A stretch of 64,000 nucleotides of DNA from an uncultured Oscillospiraceae bacterium (GTDB lineage Bacteria > Bacillota > Clostridia > Oscillospirales > Oscillospiraceae), in the NCBI GenBank assembly GCA_944387035.1, contig CALXDJ010000001.1:124001-188000 (forward strand), in the 5' to 3' direction. Of the stretch, positions 3,083-22,137 are shown one piece after another. Each line of letters starts with the position of its first letter. Positions within the stretch are counted from its first letter, which is position 1. A program made the position numbers and the translations under genes. The notes beneath the pieces are model-generated. The model was given only the letters and a program-made list of their open reading frames with translations, searched no databases and was not told the DNA's origin.

Positions 3083-5158
3083 TTACTCCTTTTCCGCCAG
3101 GGCCTTCGCCTCGGCGATGGCCTTCTCCTGAGCTGCCGGCGGGCAGTCCTCATAACGGACAAAGTGGAAGGTGAAGCTGCCGCGGCTCTGGGTCATGGAC
3201 CGCAGATCGATGGCATACGTTCCCATCTCTGCCATGGGTACCTCGGCGGTGATCACCTGGCTGCCGTCACCGGTGGGATCCATGCCCATCACGCGGCCCC
3301 GGCGCTTGTTCAGATCGCCGATCACATCACCCATATAGTTATCGGGCACCGTGACCTTCAGCTCACCCACAGGCTCCAGCAGCACGGGGCTGGCCTCCGG
3401 CAAAGCGGCCTTATACGCCAGCTGCGCCGCGGTCTTGAATGCGATTTCGGAAGAATCCACCGGGTGATAGGAGCCATCGTACAGCACGGCCTTCAGATTC
3501 ACCACGGGATATCCCGCCAGGGGACCGTGAGCACAGGCCTCCCGCAGGCCCTTCTCCACTGCCGGGAAGAAGTTCTTGGGCACAGAGCCGCCGAACACTT
3601 CTTCAGCAAAGATCATATCGTCAGACTCGGTCTGGGGCTCGAAGCGGATCCACACGTCACCGAACTGGCCGCTGCCGCCGGTCTGCTTCTTATGACGGCC
3701 CTGCTTCTGCACGGTCTTGCGGATCTTCTCACGGTAAGGCACCCGCACGGGCTTGAGTTCCGCCTCCACGTTGAAGCGGGACTTGAGCTTGCTGATCAGC
3801 ACATCCACCTGCATATCGCCGGCACCGGAGAGTACCATCTGGTGGGTCTCACCATTGTTGGTCACGCTGAAGGAGGGATCTTCTTCGTTGAGACGGCTCA
3901 AGCCCTGGGCAATCTTATCCTCCTGACCGCGGACCTTGGGCACGATGGCCACGGAATAGCAGGGCTCGGCAAAGGGAATGTTCTTCAGCGCCACCACCTT
4001 ACGGGCATCGCACAGGGTATCGCCGGTTTTCACCTTCTCCATCTTGGCAATGGCACCGATATCGCCGCAGGAGAGCTCCTTGACCTCGGTGGCCTTTTTG
4101 CCGCGCATGATATACAGGCGTCCTAGTTTCTCCGTTGCGCCGGTACGGGCGTTGACCATGGACAGATCCGGCGTCAGGGTTCCGGAGAGGACCTTGACAA
4201 AGGAGTACTTGCCGTACTGGTCGGAAACGGTCTTGAACACGAAGGCCGTCGGCACGCCGCCGGGAGAAACCACGAATTCCTCCGTCTCGCCGTCGGCACG
4301 GGTTGCCTTGTGATAGTTGCCTTCCATGGGATTGGGCAGCAGGTCCACAATGTTGTCCATCAGCATGAGAGAACCCATGCACGTCACAGCGGAACCGCAC
4401 AGCACCGGGAACAGACTCAGCTCCCGCACGCCCTGACGCAGGCCCTGGATCATTTCCGCATAGGTGAAATCCTCACCGCTGAAGAACTTGTCCATAAAGG
4501 CTTCGCTGGTCTCCGCCACAGATTCCTTCAGCGCGTCATTGAACTCGGTAATGACCGCTTCCTTATCCTCCGGAACCTCGATCTCGACCCGCTTGAGATC
4601 CTGCATCTCGAAAGCGCGCTTATTGAGCACGTCGATGATGCCGGTCACCCGCTTGTTCTCATCCCAAATGGGGACCACCACCGGCGCGATCTTCTTGCCG
4701 AAGCGTTCCCGCAGTGCCTCAAACGTCGCGTTATAATCGCTGTTCTCCTCATCCGTCTTGGAGATGTATACAAAGCGGGGCATATTCCGCTCTTCGCAGT
4801 ATTTCCATGCCTTCTCCAGGCCAACGGAAATGCCGTCCTTGGCAGAGCAGACAATCACGGCGGCGTCGGCGGCCCGCAGGGCCTCCATCACTTCACCGGA
4901 AAAATCAAAAGCACCCGGGGTATCCAGAACATTGATCCGGCAGCCCTTGTACTCCAGCGGCGCAACGGCGGTGGAGATGGAAATCTGACGCTTGACCTCT
5001 TCGGGATCATAGTCGCAGACGGTATTTCCGTCCGCCACGCGGCCCATGCGGTCAATGGCGCCGGTGATGTAAATCAGACTTTCGGCCAGGGCGGTCTTCC
5101 CGCTGCCGCTATGTCCCAGCAAGCAGACATTCCGGATGTTCTGTACAGAATAGCTCAT
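3083..5158 (-). CDS. Elongation factor G-like translation GTPase (non-canonical)
   Basis: Ribosome-associated GTPase of the EF-G family, 691 residues, with the full EF-G architecture: G domain, domain II, domain III, domain IV with an AYKAALPEA-like segment, and a domain V ending. The P-loop is GHSGSGKT (about residues 14-21). The G3 motif reads DTPGAFDF rather than DTPGHVDF, so the histidine that normally positions the attacking water is Ala. G4 reads SKTD instead of NKxD. These changes fit the clostridial EF-G-like paralogue group rather than the housekeeping fusA, which normally sits beside tuf and rpsL/rpsG. The ATG at 5158 has an AAGGAG site. Its role is unknown; candidates are stress or recycling functions on the ribosome. 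Confidence 0.88.
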   Translation of the reverse strand: MSYSVQNIRNVCLLGHSGSGKTALAESLIYITGAIDRMGRVADGNTVCDYDPEEVKRQISISTAVAPLEYKGCRINVLDTPGAFDFSGEVMEALRAADAAVIVCSAKDGISVGLEKAWKYCEERNMPRFVYISKTDEENSDYNATFEALRERFGKKIAPVVVPIWDENKRVTGIIDVLNKRAFEMQDLKRVEIEVPEDKEAVITEFNDALKESVAETSEAFMDKFFSGEDFTYAEMIQGLRQGVRELSLFPVLCGSAVTCMGSLMLMDNIVDLLPNPMEGNYHKATRADGETEEFVVSPGGVPTAFVFKTVSDQYGKYSFVKVLSGTLTPDLSMVNARTGATEKLGRLYIMRGKKATEVKELSCGDIGAIAKMEKVKTGDTLCDARKVVALKNIPFAEPCYSVAIVPKVRGQEDKIAQGLSRLNEEDPSFSVTNNGETHQMVLSGAGDMQVDVLISKLKSRFNVEAELKPVRVPYREKIRKTVQKQGRHKKQTGGSGQFGDVWIRFEPQTESDDMIFAEEVFGGSVPKNFFPAVEKGLREACAHGPLAGYPVVNLKAVLYDGSYHPVDSSEIAFKTAAQLAYKAALPEASPVLLEPVGELKVTVPDNYMGDVIGDLNKRRGRVMGMDPTGDGSQVITAEVPMAEMGTYAIDLRSMTQSRGSFTFHFVRYEDCPPAAQEKAIAEAKALAEKE

Positions 5159-13897: not shown

Positions 13898-15793
13898 TCA
13901 GTCCAGTTCCGCCTGGCCGGTATAGAGCTGATAGTACCGGCCGTGCTGGGCAATCAGATCATCGTGGTCGCCCCGCTCGATGATCCGCCCCTGCTCCAGA
14001 ACCATGATGGCCTTGGCATTGCGGACCGTGGAGAGGCGGTGGGCGATGACAAACACGGTACGTCCGGCCATCAGCCGGTCCATGCCCCGCTCAATGAGCT
14101 TTTCCGTCCGGGTATCAATGGAACTGGTGGCCTCATCCAGAATCAGAACCGGAGGATTGGCACAGGCCGCCCGGGCAATGTTGAGCAGCTGCCGCTCACC
14201 CTGGGAGAGGTTTCCGCCGTCCCCGGAGAGGATCGTATTGTACCCGTGGGGCAGATGCCGGATAAAGGTATCTGCACCCGCCAGCTGCGCGGCCGCTTCC
14301 ACTTCCTCATCCGTGGCATCCAGCCGGCCATAGCGGATGTTATCCGCCACGGTGCCGGTAAAGAGGTGCGTATCCTGCAGCACCACGCCCAGAGACCGGC
14401 GCAGCGAATCCTTCCGGATATCCCGCACATCGATGCCGTCATAGGTGATGGTTCCGCTCTGGATCTCATAGAAGCGGTTGATGAGGCTGGTGATGGTGGT
14501 CTTTCCTGCGCCGGTGGAGCCCACGAAGGCAATTTTCTGGCCCGGCTTTGCAAACAAAGAGATGTCATGGAGAATCACTTTGCGCTCATCATAGCCAAAG
14601 ACCACATGGTCAAACCGCACATCTCCCCGCAGTGGAACCAGGGTACCGTCTGGTTTCTTCCAGGCCCAGGCGCCGGAATCAAAGGACGCTTCCGAAAGCG
14701 TTCCCTCCGCGTCCTGTTTGACCCGCACCAAGGTGACTTCACCCGCATCCGGCTCCGGCTGGGCTTCCATGACTTCAAATACCCGCTCCGCACCGGCAAC
14801 GGCGGAAAGAATGGTATTGACCTGCTGTGACATCTGCGTAATGGGCTGGCTGACCTGCCGGGTACACTGCAGAAACAGCGCCAGATCGCCCAGCTGGAAG
14901 CTGCCGCCCCCAATGGCCAGCATAGCCCCCACGCAGCAAGTCAGGGCATAGTTGATATAGCTGAGGTTTCCCATGGCCGGCATCATCACACCGGCAAAAA
15001 TCTGGGCGCGGGTCGCCGCCTGCTGGTAGGCCTCATTGCGGACATTGAACCCCTCCCGGGCGGCCTGCTCGTGATTGAAGACCTTGATGACCTTCTGGCC
15101 TTCCATCATCTCCTCAATATAACCGTTGACCTCGCCCACAGCCTTTTGCTGCATGGCAAAATACCGCCGGGAGCGGCTGCCCACAGCCTTCACTACAACC
15201 AGCATGACCACCAGCACACCGATGGTCACCAACGTCAGCAGCGGATTGATCACCAGCATCATCAGCAGTGTGCCGGAAAAGTTCAGAGCACAGGAAATCA
15301 GGCTGGCAAAGCTGTTGTTCAAAGCCTCCGATACCGTTTCAATATCATTGGTATACCGGCTCATCAGTTCGCCGTGAGTATGGGTATCAAAATATTTCAG
15401 TGGCAGAGCCTGCATCTTGTCAAACAGATCTGCCCGAAGCTGCGCCACGGTATTCTGGGAAACATGAACCATCAGCCGGGCATATCCAAACGAACACCCT
15501 GCTCCCAGGATATACACTCCTGCCATGACCGCCAGCATACGGGCAAGCCCCGGAAAATCGCCCGGAAGAATATAGTCATTGATCAGGGGCTTGAGCAGAT
15601 ACGATCCGCCGATGGTGCAGGCAGAGCTGGCAAACAGCAGCACAATCACCAGTACAAGATGTGCCCGGTACCGCCCCAGATACCGCATGAGTTTGCGCAG
15701 GGTTCCCCGCATATCCTTGGGCTTTTGAAAACCATGGCGTCCGGGGCCATGACCGCCCGGCCTCATGGGCCGTTCCTTTTTTTCAACCACCAA
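13898..15793 (-). CDS. ABC exporter, catalytically competent half of a heterodimer
   Basis: Membrane domain fused to an ATP-binding domain, 631 residues, type IV (MDR/MsbA-like) exporter. Six transmembrane helices precede a nucleotide-binding domain with Walker A GSTGAGKTT, signature LSQGER, and Walker B LILDEATSS with the catalytic Glu. An insertion of about 35 residues lies before the ATPase domain. The N-terminus is rich in Gly, His and Arg. The start is TTG 15793 (or GTG 15790), both preceded by AAGGAG; the gene overlaps the upstream partner by 11 bases, indicating translational coupling. The partner has a degenerate site, as in TM287/288 or BmrCD. A MarR regulator heads the operon, suggesting export of a toxic compound. 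Confidence 0.88.
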   Translation of the reverse strand: MVVEKKERPMRPGGHGPGRHGFQKPKDMRGTLRKLMRYLGRYRAHLVLVIVLLFASSACTIGGSYLLKPLINDYILPGDFPGLARMLAVMAGVYILGAGCSFGYARLMVHVSQNTVAQLRADLFDKMQALPLKYFDTHTHGELMSRYTNDIETVSEALNNSFASLISCALNFSGTLLMMLVINPLLTLVTIGVLVVMLVVVKAVGSRSRRYFAMQQKAVGEVNGYIEEMMEGQKVIKVFNHEQAAREGFNVRNEAYQQAATRAQIFAGVMMPAMGNLSYINYALTCCVGAMLAIGGGSFQLGDLALFLQCTRQVSQPITQMSQQVNTILSAVAGAERVFEVMEAQPEPDAGEVTLVRVKQDAEGTLSEASFDSGAWAWKKPDGTLVPLRGDVRFDHVVFGYDERKVILHDISLFAKPGQKIAFVGSTGAGKTTITSLINRFYEIQSGTITYDGIDVRDIRKDSLRRSLGVVLQDTHLFTGTVADNIRYGRLDATDEEVEAAAQLAGADTFIRHLPHGYNTILSGDGGNLSQGERQLLNIARAACANPPVLILDEATSSIDTRTEKLIERGMDRLMAGRTVFVIAHRLSTVRNAKAIMVLEQGRIIERGDHDDLIAQHGRYYQLYTGQAELD

Positions 15794-17519
15794 TGCTCAC
15801 TCCTTCCTGCTGAGACTGATACACGTCCCGATAAATCTCGCAGCGTGCCATCAGTTCCTCATGGGTCCCCTGATCCACCACACGTCCTGCATCCATCACC
15901 AGAATCCGGTCTGCCTGACAAATGGAGGTGACCCGCTGGGCAATGATGATCTTGGTGGTATGCTTGAGCTCATTGGCAAAAGCGCTGCGGATCTTGGCGT
16001 CCGTTGCGGTATCCACTGCGCTGGTGGAGTCGTCCAGAATCAGCACTTTGGGCTGCTTCAAGATGGCGCGGGCGATGCAAAGCCGCTGCTTTTGTCCGCC
16101 GGAAACATTCACGCCGCCCTGGCCCAGGTCCGTATCCAGTCCATCGGGCATCCGTTCCAGGAACTCATCGGCACAGGCCGCCCGGCAGGCTGCCCAGAGC
16201 TGTTCTTCCGTGGCATTGGGATCGCCCCAGAGGAGGTTTTCCCGAATGGTGCCGGAAAAGAGCGTATTTTTTTGCAGCACCACGCTCACTGCGTCCCGCA
16301 GATGCTCCATGGTATAGCTGTCCACCGGTCTGCCGCCTACCAGGACAGTTCCTTCGGTGGCCTCATACAGGCGGGGAATCAGAGACACCAACGTACTCTT
16401 GCCGCTGCCCGTTCCGCCCAGAATGCCCACGGTGGCACCGGAGGGAATCTGCAGATCCACATCCCGCAAGATCCACTCCGGACTCTCAGGATCATACTTG
16501 AAGGAAACATGCTGGAACTCGATGGTCCCATCCTGAACCCGGGCACCTTCCTGTGCCTTCTCATTGTCAATGGACGGGTGCTCTTCCAAAACCTCGGCAA
16601 TCCGGCGGGCACAGGCAACCGACCGGGTCAGCATCATAAAGACCATGGACACCATCATCAGCGACACCATGATCTGCGTGATATAGGTGAAATAGGTCAT
16701 CAGCTTACCGGTATCCAACGTACCGGCAAACACCATCTTGCCGCCAAACCACATCACTGCAATGATGGTACCATAGATAATCAGCATCATGATGGGCATG
16801 TTGATGACAACCATGCCGAACGCACGCTCAGAAGTGTGTTTGAGATCCAGATTGCGGCGGGCAAACTTCTCCCGCTCATGATCTTCCCGCACAAAGGATT
16901 TGACCACCCGGATTCCCGTCAGGTTCTCCTGCACCACCAGATTCAATGCGTCAGTCTTTTCCTGGAGGGAGCGGAACATCGGGCCCACCTTGATCAAAAG
17001 GCTTCCCACCAGAACCACCAGCAGCGGCAGCGCCACCAGGAAGACATTGCTCAGCTGGTAGCTGATGCTCACCGACAGGATCAGAGCCGAAACCAGCATC
17101 ACCGGCGCCCGTACCAGCAGACGCATTCCCATCATCAAAGACAGCTGCATGCTGTTGACATCACTGGTCAGGCGGGTCACCAGGGATGCGGTGGAAAACT
17201 TTTCAATGTTGGAAAAAGCAAATTCCTGGATGTGGTCGTACTCCGCCCGGCGCAGATTCGCGCCGAAGCCCTGACCTGCCACAGACGAACAAGCCGCGCT
17301 GCCCAGGCCAAAGCACAGTGACACCAGCGCCATCACCACCATCAGGCCGCCCTTTTGCAGGATATAGGTCTGATCCCCATTGGCAATGCCGATATCCACA
17401 ATATCACTCATCACCAGCGGAATCAGCAGCTCAAACACTGCCTCCGCCGCCGAACAGAGGATGCCCGCCAAAATCCAGGGGGCATACGGTCTGGCCTGTG
17501 GCCAGAGTTTTTTGATCAT
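15783..17519 (-). CDS. ABC exporter, degenerate-site half of a heterodimer
   Basis: 578 residues: six transmembrane helices followed by a nucleotide-binding domain. Walker A is GGTGSGKST and the signature is VSGGQKQR, but Walker B reads LILDDSTSA, with Asp in place of the catalytic Glu. This substitution is the usual mark of the non-hydrolysing site in heterodimeric exporters such as BmrC/LmrC/TM287. The companion gene overlaps its 3' end and carries the canonical Glu. Its own start overlaps the marR stop by 4 bases (ATGA-type coupling). The exporter substrate is unknown; drug or peptide export is likely from family and the MarR context. Confidence 0.9.
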   Translation of the reverse strand: MIKKLWPQARPYAPWILAGILCSAAEAVFELLIPLVMSDIVDIGIANGDQTYILQKGGLMVVMALVSLCFGLGSAACSSVAGQGFGANLRRAEYDHIQEFAFSNIEKFSTASLVTRLTSDVNSMQLSLMMGMRLLVRAPVMLVSALILSVSISYQLSNVFLVALPLLVVLVGSLLIKVGPMFRSLQEKTDALNLVVQENLTGIRVVKSFVREDHEREKFARRNLDLKHTSERAFGMVVINMPIMMLIIYGTIIAVMWFGGKMVFAGTLDTGKLMTYFTYITQIMVSLMMVSMVFMMLTRSVACARRIAEVLEEHPSIDNEKAQEGARVQDGTIEFQHVSFKYDPESPEWILRDVDLQIPSGATVGILGGTGSGKSTLVSLIPRLYEATEGTVLVGGRPVDSYTMEHLRDAVSVVLQKNTLFSGTIRENLLWGDPNATEEQLWAACRAACADEFLERMPDGLDTDLGQGGVNVSGGQKQRLCIARAILKQPKVLILDDSTSAVDTATDAKIRSAFANELKHTTKIIIAQRVTSICQADRILVMDAGRVVDQGTHEELMARCEIYRDVYQSQQEGVSIGG

Positions 17520-17953
17520 CGTGTCTCATCCTCCTCGAGATTCCGAATCACCCGGGAAAGCAGAGTCCGCAGGGTTTCCTGCTCCTCCGCTGTGAATCCC
17601 CGAACCATTTGCTGTTCCGCTTCCTGAAAGTGCCGCTGGAACAGCGTCTGCTGTTGGCTTCCCTTCTCCGTCAGGGTAATCAGACGGCGACGGGCATCCG
17701 TTCCGCTGACGCTGCGCACCACCATCCCCTTTTCCTCCAAACGATCCAGGATTCCATTGGCTGTAGGGGGCTTTACCCGCAAAAATCCAGTCAATTCACA
17801 CTGCGGCACCTGTCCGCCATTCCGCCCCAGATACAGCAGCACGTGCATTTGCGCCGGTGTCACATCATATTGAGCCAGCCGGACATCCAGTCTGGTCCGG
17901 GCCAGATGCGCCGCCCGTCCCAGCGTGGGCCCCAGTGCGTTGATCATTCGCAT
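17516..17953 (-). CDS. MarR-family transcriptional regulator of the adjacent ABC exporter
   Basis: 145-residue winged-helix dimeric repressor. The DNA-binding core is in the middle (a TPAQMHVLLYLGRNGGQVPQ helix pair, recognition helix around KPPTANGILDRLEEKGMV, and a wing with the conserved DARRRLITLT). I chose ATG 17953 because the AAGGGG site lies 8 bases upstream of it and would overlap the alternative GTG at 17962. First gene of a three-gene operon with the two exporter halves. Its promoter carries two perfect palindromes, so negative autoregulation with relief by a substrate of the pump is the likely scheme. Confidence 0.88.
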   Translation of the reverse strand: MRMINALGPTLGRAAHLARTRLDVRLAQYDVTPAQMHVLLYLGRNGGQVPQCELTGFLRVKPPTANGILDRLEEKGMVVRSVSGTDARRRLITLTEKGSQQQTLFQRHFQEAEQQMVRGFTAEEQETLRTLLSRVIRNLEEDETR

Positions 17954-17970
17954 ATCATGCACCCCTTATT

Positions 17971-18026
17971 TTAGCCTGCTAAAAATTAGCACGCTAAATA
18001 CTAGCACAGGACACATTTTCTGTCAA
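17971..18026 (-). promoter_or_regulatory. marR-ABC promoter with tandem palindromic operators
   Basis: Minus-strand SigA promoter: TTGACA (18021-18026), 17-base spacer, TAGTAT (17998-18003) with an extended TG. Immediately downstream, over the start site, lie two copies of TTAGC-NN-GCTAA (17971-17982 and 17986-17997) spaced 15 bases centre to centre. A third half-site overlaps the -10. The layout fits repression by the MarR protein encoded next to it. Confidence 0.82.
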
Positions 18027-18119
18027 TGTATATTTCGCCCCATTATTTGAACGTTTTATGAATAAAACTCGGAAAATCATAACCTTTGTAAACAATTTGT
18101 GAAGCATCCTCCGCACCCG

Positions 18120-18148
18120 TTGACTTTCCGGAATTCACTCGGTATGAT
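18120..18148 (+). promoter_or_regulatory. SigA-type promoter of a candidate small RNA
   Basis: TTGACT (18120-18125), a 17-base spacer, TATGAT (18143-18148). No gene starts downstream before a strong terminator at 18211-18258, and the next gene has its own promoter at 18293. Confidence 0.68.
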
Positions 18149-18154
18149 AAATCC

Positions 18155-18258
18155 ATCAAGCAACAAGCTTGAATTTGTACACCACTTTCCCTCTCCTTTC
18201 TCTATATCATATGACACGGCGGACGGTTCCCATGAATCGTCCGCCGTGTCATGTTTTT
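18155..18258 (+). ncRNA. Candidate intergenic small RNA with pyrimidine-rich anti-Shine-Dalgarno stretch
   Basis: About 105 nt between a good promoter and a strong intrinsic terminator. It begins with a small hairpin (TCAAGC/GCTTGA, 18156-18161 with 18167-18172), continues with an uninterrupted 19-nt pyrimidine tract (18185-18203) that includes CTCCTTT, the complement of an AAAGGAG ribosome site, and ends in the terminator stem. Firmicute regulatory RNAs often present C/U-rich single-stranded loops to ribosome sites. An 18-codon ATG frame at 18211 has no ribosome site. Targets and expression are unknown; a leader for the downstream DUF2975 operon is the main alternative. Confidence 0.5.
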
Positions 18259-18260
18259 GC
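18211..18260 (+). terminator. Strong rho-independent terminator ending the candidate small RNA
   Basis: A 19-bp stem with a single wobble pair (18211-18229 with 18234-18252, loop CCAT), followed by GTTTTTG on the + strand. No annotated + strand gene lies upstream of it, so it ends an otherwise unannotated transcript. The whole 17954-18343 interval is accounted for by the marR promoter, this small RNA unit and the next promoter. Confidence 0.8.
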
Positions 18261-18292
18261 CTTTTGATTTATCGAAAAACAATAAAAAATAA

Positions 18293-18321
18293 TTGACAAA
18301 CAATAATTGCCATGGTACGAT
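18293..18321 (+). promoter_or_regulatory. SigA-type promoter of the DUF2975 operon
   Basis: TTGACA (18293-18298), a 17-base spacer and TACGAT (18316-18321) with an extended TG. The transcript starts only about 15 bases before the ribosome site of the DUF2975 gene. Confidence 0.72.
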
Positions 18322-18343
18322 ACCGGCAAAGGAGGAATGTTTC

Positions 18344-18916
18344 ATGGAAGCATCCGGTGTACAAAAAATCGCCCGGGTTTTAAATAGTCTGGTGGCAATC
18401 ACACTTCTCTGCAACCTGATCGCCCTGCCGCTGGTTCCCGGAATTGTGTATTTCCGCTTTGCACAAGAAGGTGTTCCTTTCTCCAGTCTGCAGGCCACCT
18501 TTGCTTATGACGTGGACGATGGGCTGGGGAATCTGCTGTCCATCTATTTGCGGGATGTCTGGGCAGAACCCTATACACTGACTTTGACGCTCTTTTTGCT
18601 CTTTTCCGGCATCTGTACTGCGGTGATCCTTCAGCAGGGCCGCCGGGTCCTGGCCATCATTCTGCAGGGGACCCCCTTCTCCCTGGAAAATGCCGCCGCT
18701 CTCCACCGGGCTGCCGTCGCCTCTTTTATCATTGCTGTTGCAGCGCTGGTACGGGTGATCTTCAGCGTATGCTTTTTCCACTCTCCTCTGCCGATCCTCA
18801 CCTATAACGCCCTGTTCGTCCCCATTTTTTCCATGTTCGGCCTGCTGTGCCTGGTCATGTCCGCCCTATTCCGCCAAGCGGCGGAGATGAAAGCGGAACA
18901 GGATCTGACGATTTGA
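18344..18916 (+). CDS. DUF2975-like four-helix membrane protein
   Basis: 190 residues, four predicted transmembrane helices (about residues 10-35, 75-95, 125-148, 153-180), short loops, no catalytic motif visible. The architecture and its position directly before a small Cro-like regulator match the widespread DUF2975/YoaS plus YozG pair of Firmicutes. The ATG at 18344 has an AAAGGAGG site; the frame extends upstream without support. The next gene begins 11 bases after the stop. Function unknown; it may sense or modulate the regulator at the membrane. Confidence 0.75.
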   Translation: MEASGVQKIARVLNSLVAITLLCNLIALPLVPGIVYFRFAQEGVPFSSLQATFAYDVDDGLGNLLSIYLRDVWAEPYTLTLTLFLLFSGICTAVILQQGRRVLAIILQGTPFSLENAAALHRAAVASFIIAVAALVRVIFSVCFFHSPLPILTYNALFVPIFSMFGLLCLVMSALFRQAAEMKAEQDLTI

Positions 18917-18927
18917 GGAGGCGGATT

Positions 18928-19143
18928 ATGGCAATTGTGGTGAATTTGGACGTCATGATGGCCAAACGCAAAATGACGCTTTCTCAACTGTCGGAAAAGG
19001 TGGACATCACCTTGGCCAATCTGTCGATTCTGAAAAACAACAAGGCCAAAGCGGTGCGGTTTTCCACACTGGAGGCCATCTGTGCCGCACTGGATTGTCA
19101 GCCCGGGGATATTCTGGAGTACGTCCCGGACGATCCGCCGTAA
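18928..19143 (+). CDS. Small Cro/cI-type helix-turn-helix regulator (YozG-like)
   Basis: 71-residue DNA-binding protein consisting of little more than the HTH: LDVMMAKRKMTLSQLSEKVD, followed by the recognition helix ANLSILKNNKAKAVRF and a C-terminal helix ending in GDILEY. This pattern is typical of the HTH_26/YozG group, which nearly always follows a DUF2975 gene. A GAGGAGG site lies just upstream of the ATG. The operon contains only membrane proteins besides this regulator, suggesting control of its own operon. Confidence 0.85.
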   Translation: MAIVVNLDVMMAKRKMTLSQLSEKVDITLANLSILKNNKAKAVRFSTLEAICAALDCQPGDILEYVPDDPP

Positions 19144-19199
19144 ATCCAACCATGATTTCCGTCTAATACCGCACTTTGTGCAAAGGAGGTTCTTGGATC

Positions 19200-19514
19200 A
19201 TGGGCAATATTTGGTACCTACTCAATCCGCTGAGTCTTTTGCTGGGGCTGGCAGCCTGGGTACTTCCCTTCATGGCAATGTCCCGCCGTCTCCGGCTGGG
19301 CAAAGCATTGGCCGCCAGCAGTCTGTGCTGTTCTGCCTCACTCTGGTTTCAGCTGGTCTATCAGGACCATCTGGTCACCGTGCAGGACTGGTCCGCCCTG
19401 CTGGATACCTCCGGCGCACTGGTACGGGTGGCGGCAGTATTAATCGCGGTCACCGCCCTGCTGCAATTGGGGGCCGCCGTTCTGGCCGGAAACCCCCGGT
19501 CATCCAACTCATGA
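19200..19514 (+). CDS. Small hydrophobic membrane protein
   Basis: 104 residues with three hydrophobic segments (about residues 5-28, 35-55, 70-95) separated by short loops and no conserved polar motif. I do not recognise a family. An AAAGGAGG site lies 11 bases upstream of the ATG. Its TGA stop overlaps the ATG of the next small gene (ATGA), so the two are probably translationally coupled. It belongs to the DUF2975/HTH cassette. Confidence 0.7.
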   Translation: MGNIWYLLNPLSLLLGLAAWVLPFMAMSRRLRLGKALAASSLCCSASLWFQLVYQDHLVTVQDWSALLDTSGALVRVAAVLIAVTALLQLGAAVLAGNPRSSNS

Positions 19515-19636
19515 AGCGGCGAATAACCGCCCTGGCCGGGGCTGTAATCTGTGTGGCCGTATTGACCTGCTTCTTTTTTCTGGTAGTCCTGATCGCCCTG
19601 GCACTGTTCACCCCAGGCAATTGGGCCGCCCGCTGA
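19511..19636 (+). CDS. 41-residue single-pass membrane peptide
   Basis: Small gene beginning at the ATGA overlap with the preceding stop codon. The peptide has a basic N-terminus (MKRRI), one transmembrane helix of about 26 residues rich in Val, Leu and Phe, and a short polar end (TPGNWAAR). The coupling and the membrane helix argue that it is real, but no upstream ribosome site other than coding sequence is evident and no family is recognised. Confidence 0.5.
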   Translation: MKRRITALAGAVICVAVLTCFFFLVVLIALALFTPGNWAAR

Positions 19637-19699
19637 ACCATCCACCCATTTTACGAAATCTGTCCACGTAGTATGGACAGTCTCAAAAGGAGTCTGCAT

Positions 19700-21226
19700 A
19701 TGTCTGATCATATTGCCCCCCTGCCGGCAGGAGGGCCGGCGAAGCCTACCCAAATTTCCTCATCCACCCCTGAAATTGCGTTCCGGGACCGGCTGTTTCT
19801 GCTGTTCACCTTGTGTTTTTGTGTGCTGCTGGCGGACGCCTTTTTCTGGCATGGTCCCACCGCCTCCCTGGGAATTGCCGTGGCAGCCTGGGATGTGCTG
19901 CTGGGCTGCTATGTGGGCCGGCGGGTTTTGTTTGGCCGCAAGAGTCTGGCGCTGCTTCTTTACAACCTGATTCTGGCCGCCTCACTGGCCCTTGGTTCAA
20001 ACTGGTATTTCCGGCTGTGGAATCTGCTGGCGCTGCTGGTACTGCTGCCGGTCCATGCCATCGGGCTTTCCGGTGCGGCCTCCCTGCCCTGGTTCCGTCC
20101 CGCTATGCTCTGGGAACGGTTTTGTCTGCTGCTGAGCAACCTGTTCGGCGGACTGGGCGCCTTCTTCGCCGCCCTGACCCCCACCGGAAACTCCGCCTCC
20201 CGGTCCCGGCGTCTGCCGGCCATTCTGTTTGGCGGAACCGGTGCTGTCATCCTGCTGTGCATTCTGGTGCCGGTCCTGGCCTCCGGAGACGCGCTGTTTG
20301 CCGCCGTCACGGCAGATCTGCGAATCTTTGTCCGCTCCCATTTCACTTTGGCCATCACCAAGCTGGTATGCGGCATGGCCCTGACCCCCTTTGTCTTTGG
20401 CTTTTTGTATCGTCTGCGCCATCCCAAACCGCTTACCCGTTCCATGGCAGGCGCGCCCACGGCAGACCCTTTGGGCTTTGTTCTGATTCTCGCGGCGCTG
20501 GATGCCCTGTACCTGTTGTTTTTGGCAGTGCAGTCCACCGGCATTCTGGGAGGCGAGGCCTACCTCGCCCAGCGCGGCATCTCGTATGCCCAATGGGCTC
20601 GCAGCGGTTTTTTCCAGATAGTAGGTGTCACAGTGGTCAATCTCACCGCCATCCTCACTGCACTCTGGGCCGCCCGCCCCAACGGCCGCCTCTGGACGGT
20701 CCTGCGCAGCCTGTCCGCCTTGCTGCTGGCGGAGAGCTTAGTGCTGCTGGGCTGCGCCGCCTGGCGGATGACGCTCTATGTCCAGGCCTACGGGTTATCG
20801 TTTAAGCGGTGCCTGACCTACTGGGGCATGGTCATGATGGCTCTGTTTTTCCTGACTGCGGCAGCCAAGCTGATTCAGCCCAGCCGCTCCTTCTGCCGCA
20901 TCGCCTTCCCCCTGGCCCTGGCGGGATGGCTGGTTCTCAATTGCATCCCTGTGGATTTTCTGGTGGCCAAAAACCAGGTAGACCGCTATCTCAATGGGGA
21001 AAGCCCCACCATCAGCGTTCACTATTTGGCCTACTCCCTCTCCTACGATACCCTCTCCCAACTGGAGCGGCTGGACCCCGATCTCCCGCTCTCCCGCTGT
21101 GAGGGAGAGTGGTGGTCCTCCGAAGATACCGTCGGTTCCCTGCTGACACAGCGCCGGAACGCTGCCCGGGAAGAATGTGCTGACTGGCACACCTGGTCCC
21201 TTTCCGCCTTTCTGGCCTCCCGCTGA
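19700..21226 (+). CDS. DUF4173/DUF4153-like polytopic membrane protein
   Basis: 508 residues with about 12 hydrophobic helices, starting after a ~35-residue polar N-terminus. The C-terminal signature (VDFLVAKNQVDRYLNG followed by an SVHYLAYSLSYDTL-like stretch) is characteristic of the DUF4173/DUF4153 group, whose members commonly sit beside DUF2975 and YozG-like genes. The N-terminal half contains an FGGLGAFF segment typical of this group. The ATG at 19700 has an AAAAGGAG site. It is the last gene of the cassette, 63 bases after the small peptide, and ends at a terminator. Function is not known. Confidence 0.72.
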   Translation: MSDHIAPLPAGGPAKPTQISSSTPEIAFRDRLFLLFTLCFCVLLADAFFWHGPTASLGIAVAAWDVLLGCYVGRRVLFGRKSLALLLYNLILAASLALGSNWYFRLWNLLALLVLLPVHAIGLSGAASLPWFRPAMLWERFCLLLSNLFGGLGAFFAALTPTGNSASRSRRLPAILFGGTGAVILLCILVPVLASGDALFAAVTADLRIFVRSHFTLAITKLVCGMALTPFVFGFLYRLRHPKPLTRSMAGAPTADPLGFVLILAALDALYLLFLAVQSTGILGGEAYLAQRGISYAQWARSGFFQIVGVTVVNLTAILTALWAARPNGRLWTVLRSLSALLLAESLVLLGCAAWRMTLYVQAYGLSFKRCLTYWGMVMMALFFLTAAAKLIQPSRSFCRIAFPLALAGWLVLNCIPVDFLVAKNQVDRYLNGESPTISVHYLAYSLSYDTLSQLERLDPDLPLSRCEGEWWSSEDTVGSLLTQRRNAAREECADWHTWSLSAFLASR

Positions 21227-21255
21227 CATGCCGCGCTCTGCGCCACCTTTTATAC

Positions 21256-21304
21256 AGTAAAAAAGCACGGCTCCCGCATCCTCTTTCGGATGCGGGAGCC
21301 GCGT
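21256..21304. terminator. Bidirectional rho-independent terminator
   Basis: A 14-bp stem (21268-21281 with 21288-21301, loop of 6) with an A-run on its left, positioned between the DUF4173-like gene and the convergent SDR gene; strongest for the minus-strand transcript. Confidence 0.8.
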
Positions 21305-21327
21305 CAATATCGCTGTATTTTTCAAAC

Positions 21328-22137
21328 TTAGTATTTCGTGTCATACTCCCACGGTGTGCCGCCGCACAAGCAGCCGCCGTCAATGTGATAGGTCTGCCCC
21401 GTCATATAGCTGGAGGCATCGGAAGCCAGCAAGATGGCCATGCCCACCAGCTCCTCCGGCTGGCCGCCCCGCTCCATGGCGATGCGTTCCCGCATGTACG
21501 GCGCCCGATTGGGACTGTCCCAGCTGACCTGGGTCAGTTCCGTAATAATATGGCCCGGACTGATGGCATTACAGCGAATCCCATACCGGGCACACTCCAC
21601 GGCCAGGGACCGGGTAATGGCAATGACGCCGCTCTTGGCCGCACCGTATACCGAGCAGCCGCCCAGCATGGCCGTGTCATTGTGGGAACCGATGTTGATG
21701 ATGCTGCCACTCTTGCGCTTGTACATCTCCCGGGCCACTGCCTGGCTGACAAAATAAACACCCTTGAGGTTGGTGTTCATGATCCGGTCGTAGGTCTCTT
21801 CTTCCACATCCAGAAGTCCTTCCCGCTTGTTGATTCCCGCCACGTTGAACAGCACATCAATCTTGCCGTACCGGGCAACAATCTCCTCCACGCGGGGTAC
21901 AATCTCCGACATGTCGGACACATCCAGATGGTAGGCAGTGGCTTTTCCGCCGTTGGCATTGATCCGATCCGCCAGGGCCTGGCATTTTTCCAGCGTCCGT
22001 CCGCACAGGGCCACTTCCGCTCCGGCGTAGGCCAGTCCCTCACTGATGGCCGCACCGATGCCGCCGGCCGCACCGGTAATCATTGCCGTTTTCCCCTCCA
22101 GGCCAAATACCGACTTGAGATACGCGCCGTGATCCAT
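21328..22137 (-). CDS. Short-chain dehydrogenase, gluconate/KDG 5-dehydrogenase-like
   Basis: NAD(P)-dependent Rossmann-fold oxidoreductase, 269 residues. The cofactor motif is TGAAGGIG (about residues 21-28), followed by NVAG and the catalytic SHND...YGAAK set (Ser, Tyr, Lys). Its closest family by pattern is the KduD/IdnO group (LEGKTAMITGAAGGIGAAI; DVLFNVAGINKR), which interconverts keto sugar acids such as 5-keto-gluconate or 2,5-diketo-3-deoxygluconate. The C-terminal QTYHIDGG is typical of classical SDRs. It follows the IclR gene by 64 bases on the same strand without a terminator, so it is probably co-transcribed. Substrate assignment is inference. Confidence 0.8.
   Translation of the reverse strand: MDHGAYLKSVFGLEGKTAMITGAAGGIGAAISEGLAYAGAEVALCGRTLEKCQALADRINANGGKATAYHLDVSDMSEIVPRVEEIVARYGKIDVLFNVAGINKREGLLDVEEETYDRIMNTNLKGVYFVSQAVAREMYKRKSGSIINIGSHNDTAMLGGCSVYGAAKSGVIAITRSLAVECARYGIRCNAISPGHIITELTQVSWDSPNRAPYMRERIAMERGGQPEELVGMAILLASDASSYMTGQTYHIDGGCLCGGTPWEYDTKY

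Follow-up and report, generated by a model that had tools for sequence, protein, structure and literature searches.

The closest described systems are two in which a two-component system uses RNAs that block translation starts: the csRNAs of streptococci, controlled by CiaRH (Marx et al. 2010, PMC3091779), and LhrC1-5 of Listeria, controlled by LisRK (PMC4132741). The locus described here lies in a 64-kb stretch of DNA, analysed as a whole (the window), and judging from its sequence is likely to encode a small RNA (sRNA) of similar design, which would be induced by a response regulator, act in trans by base pairing and repress translation starts. RsaE/RoxS and FsrA, to which the initial annotation had likened it, are under different regulators (SrrAB/ResD and Fur, respectively).

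The initial annotation had placed a promoter, a 5' hairpin, a C/U tract and a terminator with a U-run at this locus, and direct reading, a pattern scan and folding recovered each of them at the positions given (Table 1). The terminator is strong and is followed by its U-run, and its stem was counted at about 20 bp. The promoter is a joint-best sigma-70 match within 15000-22000 of the window by pattern scan. The RNA folds at -44.8 kcal/mol, 9 standard deviations below its shuffled versions (-17.1 +/- 3.0), and its predicted shape consists of the 5' hairpin, an open stretch in which the tract is unpaired, and the long terminator. The pyrimidine run is uninterrupted and the longest in the window; by itself it is just mildly unusual, since 0.25 pyrimidine or purine runs of 19 are expected per 64 kb. 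What raises the unit above chance is the conservation of its 17-nt spacing, of its compensated terminator pairs and of a near-invariant core. A single full copy is present in the source genome, the other match being the terminator stem against itself on the opposite strand, and a repeat or mobile element was rejected on the basis of this copy number.

Table 1. Features of the sRNA locus and its neighbours (positions in the window)
Feature	Position	Strand	Basis
MarR-family regulator, divergent neighbour, then two ABC exporter genes	17516-17962	-	Pfam PF12802/PF01047
Promoter-like site of the left neighbour	18026-17998	-	pattern scan
Upstream degenerate repeat copy TTGAACGTTTTATGAAT; genus form TTGAAC-GATTT-GTGAAC; ~11-bp period	18047-18063	+	genus comparison by eye
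Direct repeat TGTAAA-CAATT-TGTGAA, putative OmpR/PhoB-family response-regulator site	18087-18103	+	genus comparison
Sigma-70-type promoter TTGACT-17-TATGAT	18120-18148	+	read directly and pattern scan
-35 box TTGACT (17 nt to the -10 box)	18120-18125	+	
-10 box TATGAT	18143-18148	+	
sRNA gene, about 104 nt	18154-18258	+	start inferred from -10 box, end from terminator
5' hairpin TCAAGC-AACAA-GCTTGA	18156-18172	+	fold
Conserved unpaired core ACACCACTTTCCCTCTCCTTTCTCTATATCAT; complement is Shine-Dalgarno-spacer-start codon	18179-18210	+	alignment
Anti-start-codon position: CAC here (anti-GUG)	18183-18185	+	CAU (anti-AUG) in 47/62 relatives
19-nt pyrimidine tract CTTTCCCTCTCCTTTCTCT, anti-Shine-Dalgarno, complement AGAGAAAGGAGAGGGAAAG	18185-18203	+	read directly
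Intrinsic terminator, ~20-bp stem, 4-nt loop, U-run	18209-18258	+	pattern scan and fold
Terminator stem, 20 counted pairs	18209-18254	+	pattern scan
U-run	18254-18258	+	pattern scan
Promoter-like site of the right neighbour	18293-18321	+	pattern scan
DUF2975 membrane protein, downstream neighbour	18344-18916	+	Pfam PF11188
HTH_26 gene after the DUF2975 gene	18928-19143	+	Pfam PF13443

Of 99 related genomes, 43 matched the unit in a DNA search, every one of them from a single genus. A covariance model, biased to close relatives because its MAFFT-aligned sequences were picked by similarity, found it in at least 65 of the 86 Oscillibacter/Dysosmobacter genomes, mostly as one copy each (61 genomes at 64 bits or more, and G021, G010, G117 and G108 with weaker matches that were inspected visually); many of the remaining genomes are incomplete. 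Weaker matches of the model outside the genus were mostly hairpins only. The exact core 19-mer matched 51 loci across 84,980 species, 47 of them in Oscillibacter, Dysosmobacter or unnamed members of the group, including O. valericigenes Sjm18-20 and O. ruminantium GH1. The other four (L298, L304, L312 and L317) showed no unit whose promoter could be recognised and were set aside as chance matches; L298 lies in a contig labelled 'uncultured cyanobacterium' and is either a chance match or a mislabelled MAG. Loss of promoter and terminator in related genomes, which the initial annotation had named as evidence against the unit, was not seen: both are kept across the genus, and the promoter spacer is 17 nt in all 62 distinct genus sequences. 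The covariation that it had proposed to look for is present, with compensated double changes in 15 of the 17 consensus terminator pairs, so that the sequence varies and the pairing is kept. The 5' stems of relatives likewise differ yet pair (for example, ACAGGCG/CGCCTGT and ATCAAGT/ACTTGAT), and the genus alignment shows an invariant TTTCCCTCTCCTTTCTCTA within a longer well-kept core. Rfam 15 gave no family at gathering score in the window, and a permissive search returned sub-threshold chance matches only; identity with a known RNA family was therefore rejected. A literature search found no paper on small RNAs of Oscillibacter/Dysosmobacter. The sRNA is an undescribed, genus-wide family of this group.

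The complement of the core reads AGAAAGGAG-AGGGAAA-AUG-GU, which places a Shine-Dalgarno sequence and a start codon in register at a normal spacing. The complement of the tract contains AAAGGAG, in line with the earlier reading of the tract, and the segment at 18185-18203 is presumably an anti-Shine-Dalgarno sequence, judged by the usual form of the 16S rRNA tail, which was looked for in the assembly and not found. Among the 62 distinct sequences the start-codon complement is CAU in 47, CAA in two and another triplet in twelve, and the CAC of the source species appears to fit a GUG start codon. The tract is predicted to be fully unpaired in 44 of these 62 sequences and is on average 90% unpaired. 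Other loci of the source genome with a C/U tract and a terminator are mostly complements of adjoining gene starts, and none has the sRNA architecture. To judge by its register, the core is suited to masking the ribosome-binding site of an mRNA together with its start codon.

The sRNA most likely blocks translation starts, a mechanism inferred from anatomy and precedent because the target scans match their controls. A trans-acting translational repressor, as first suggested, fits the anatomy well; the target prediction recommended with it yielded, in scans of the source genome, no match above shuffled-flank controls. Near-perfect sites for Shine-Dalgarno plus AUG numbered three non-self against four matches to the reversed pattern in that genome, where no perfectly complementary target exceeded the control, and rankings of its start regions by energy and by contiguous helix showed no excess over shuffled versions. 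mraY heads both rankings, with 15 contiguous pairs, the longest duplex in the genome, and walK, tadE and ftsW stand high, but shuffled-flank controls score as well as all four. The mraY start region in 30 species lies on average at the 88th percentile for complementarity (above the 99th in six), in a test confounded by the choice of mraY from the source species and by the shared ancestry of the relatives; the exact mraY 12-mer is not kept across relatives. A start-site match of walK is present in the source genome and was not found again in relatives among the matches listed that could be compared with walK positions. mraY may tentatively be taken as the best target candidate. The sRNA probably has several targets and would recognise them through 12-15 nt, the Shine-Dalgarno sequence included; mraY and other envelope genes count as no more than candidates.

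The absence of an mRNA target that stands out above controls, together with an invariant stretch of about 30 nt that exceeds the usual seed length, would also suit a core that binds a protein, for example ribosomal protein S1 or a cold-shock protein, or that acts by titrating a different RNA. Such a non-base-pairing or sponge role is rather unlikely, because the invariant stretch matches Shine-Dalgarno, spacer and AUG in register, which a protein site would not need, and because csRNAs and LhrC have a like design and pair with mRNAs.

The genes on either side bear on two further alternatives. In most loci MarR and ABC exporter genes lie to the left, with the repeat between the MarR and sRNA genes, and the sRNA might thus be coupled in cis to the divergent MarR-ABC operon, either through a shared regulator site or as antisense to its 5' end. 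Such coupling is very improbable: one clade that has an unrelated plus-strand gene on the left keeps box, promoter, core and spacing, and the sRNA does not overlap the MarR gene. To the right, the DUF2975 gene is next downstream in about half of the loci (28 of the 48 tallied), which would favour a cis-acting leader or attenuator of the DUF2975/HTH cassette, the alternative offered in the initial annotation. This second reading is already largely refuted and hardly credible, since the remaining loci have another next gene, one on the opposite strand or one at a distance varying by hundreds of nucleotides (DUF2975 is absent or shifted by as much as ~900 nt), the fold shows a strong terminator and no conserved alternative structure, and the cassette has a separate promoter-like site. 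The cassette (18344-19143) is duplicated in some relatives. Least probable of all, and likewise largely refuted, is a short mRNA for a small peptide: short reading frames are present in the source sequence, but no ATG start lies upstream of the core, ATG-started frames begin at or past the terminator foot, length differences in the 5' part are not multiples of three, and in place of a Shine-Dalgarno sequence there is its complement, the tract. The neighbours vary on both sides while promoter and terminator are kept whatever the neighbours, which makes a leader or cis role unlikely. Together with the conserved structure and core, and with the promoter-like sites of the flanking genes that had been noted earlier, this strongly supports the stand-alone reading: on the comparison of loci, the sRNA gene is free-standing, and the MarR-ABC and DUF2975/HTH genes lie outside its unit.

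Three features had been overlooked in the initial annotation: the direct repeat at 18087-18103, a second repeat at ~18047-18063 and the anti-start-codon part of the core. In each of the 62 distinct genus sequences, the box TGTAAACAAATTGTGAA or a close variant lies upstream of TTGAC at a distance of exactly 16 nt, a spacing on which the search placed no constraint. OmpR/PhoB-family regulators typically have direct repeats with an 11-bp period as their sites, and the box agrees with known sites of two kinds, those of WalR and Pho. The WalR (YycF) consensus, TGTWAH-N5-TGTWAH (quoted in PMC9210968 and PMC4168254), is matched at 11 of 12 positions, with a G at one W position, and a WalRK-like pair is encoded in the source genome; Pho boxes consist of two 11-nt direct repeat units (PMC4415409). 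A position-weight matrix from the box sites scored nothing in the source genome above 20 bits apart from the box of the sRNA itself. Perfect TGTDAA-N5-TGTDAA intergenic sites number six there, including those of the sRNA, of a second sRNA-like unit (unit B) and of the pstS promoter, and sites with one mismatch precede genes for an HtrA-type protease, an Na/Pi cotransporter and rodA, the genes in this survey being called by a self-trained script rather than taken from curated annotation. The pstS site, TTTACA-N5-TTAACA, is the sRNA box motif read on the other strand, and its orientation relative to the promoter differs; it lies in the promoter of the pstS-pstCAB-phoU operon (G000:C1:24724-24740; L143 ~4724-4740), which is followed by response regulator and kinase genes. 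Three tandem half-sites, TTTGAA-N5-TGTGAA-N5-TGTAAC, stand between oxidoreductase-like and HtrA-type protease genes (G000:C21:31711-31738; L172), and repeat-like sites lie upstream of two Na/Pi-cotransporter-type genes (G000:C26:28535 and C46:8654). A two-component stress system, with a regulator that may be WalR-like, PhoB-like or another, probably activates the sRNA.

Under the favoured reading of a translation-blocking sRNA, a membrane sensor kinase would activate a response regulator of the OmpR/PhoB family, which would turn on the sigma-70 promoter by binding the direct repeat, whose centre lies ~60 nt upstream of the transcription start, as the box sequence and its fixed spacing suggest. 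The transcript would end at the strong terminator, and the two hairpins, whose structure is shown by covariation, would protect the RNA and hold the core open. The core would then pair antiparallel with the translation start of a target mRNA, so that the Shine-Dalgarno sequence is masked and often the start codon as well, and its complementarity suggests that ribosome binding would thereby be blocked.

Units of related layout are present elsewhere. Unit B (G000:C19:~4381-4525, plus strand; locus L116 1501-1645) has the box TTTACA-N5-TTCACA, a -10-like TATTGT/TATCAT, the tract TTTTCTCCCTCCT and a terminator, and lies upstream of an NAD synthase gene; 72 of the 86 genus genomes conserve it as a block of ~150 bp. 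Two further genera of the family (g69 and g118) have the arrangement box-16-TTGAC-17-TANNNT ahead of a C/U stretch (in the first 80 letters of each match), and in a third genus a unit with box and spacing identical to those of the sRNA adjoins the same ABC gene (L071). In a divergent copy of the unit, L112 (G036:C87), a single RNA contains two C/U tracts in tandem, TTTCTCTCTCCTTTCT and TTTCCCCCCTCTCTCCTTTC. Looser units of a C/U tract and a terminator in other family genera (L070, L072, L080, L086 and L091), several of which have direct repeats of the GTTCACA type close to the -35 box, suggest a wider theme of box-driven anti-Shine-Dalgarno RNAs. It is conceivable, though doubtful, that one response regulator of a stress circuit in Oscillospiraceae drives at least two unrelated RNAs of this kind, the present sRNA and unit B, and so damps the translation of envelope-synthesis genes as an independent clostridial arm like that of csRNAs or LhrC. 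Oscillibacter and Dysosmobacter are common in gut data sets, and an sRNA with an anti-Shine-Dalgarno/anti-AUG stretch and a putative box offers a direct handle on their stress control.

The csRNAs and the present sRNA share two hairpins that flank an unpaired stretch complementary to the Shine-Dalgarno sequence and start codon (here AAAGGAG-AGGGAAA-AUG/GUG, between hairpin and terminator), and both are stand-alone intergenic genes with an 11-bp-period response-regulator direct repeat at the promoter. The anti-start codon is CAU in 53 of 61 csRNAs, with anti-GUG/UUG in some, compared with 47 of 62 here (PMC3091779). The box of csRNAs is TTTAAG-N5-TTTAAG (NTTAAG in the first half), ten nt before the -10 box, whereas the sRNA has TGTAAA-N5-TGTGAA, with a full -35 box 16 nt downstream of it; no CiaR repeat was found ten nt before its -10 box, and the named matches, almost all Oscillibacter, Dysosmobacter or Oscillospiraceae, include no streptococcus, which speaks against CiaRH dependence. 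Moreover, csRNAs have about five copies per genome and the sRNA usually one strong copy, with a GC-rich terminator, in a different class of Firmicutes and with no sequence homology shown. LhrC shares the C/U-rich single-stranded stretch between two stem-loops, the predicted block of the Shine-Dalgarno sequence and control of the two-component type (putative here), but is multicopy and has three redundant CU motifs, including both loops; of the CU/UCCC positions of LhrC (loop A, linker and terminator loop), the sRNA has a single tract in the linker and none in the loops. RsaE/RoxS and FsrA are looser parallels: as cited in PMC4132741, they too have a pyrimidine-rich region that pairs with the Shine-Dalgarno sequence, but their structures differ and the sRNA has no Rfam match. 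The sRNA is thus a separate family that resembles csRNAs and LhrC and departs from them in defining regulator, motif or sequence. If the proposed mechanism is true, it would be the third case, after csRNAs and LhrC, of a two-component system that uses translation-start-blocking RNAs, which would suggest convergent evolution of the design.
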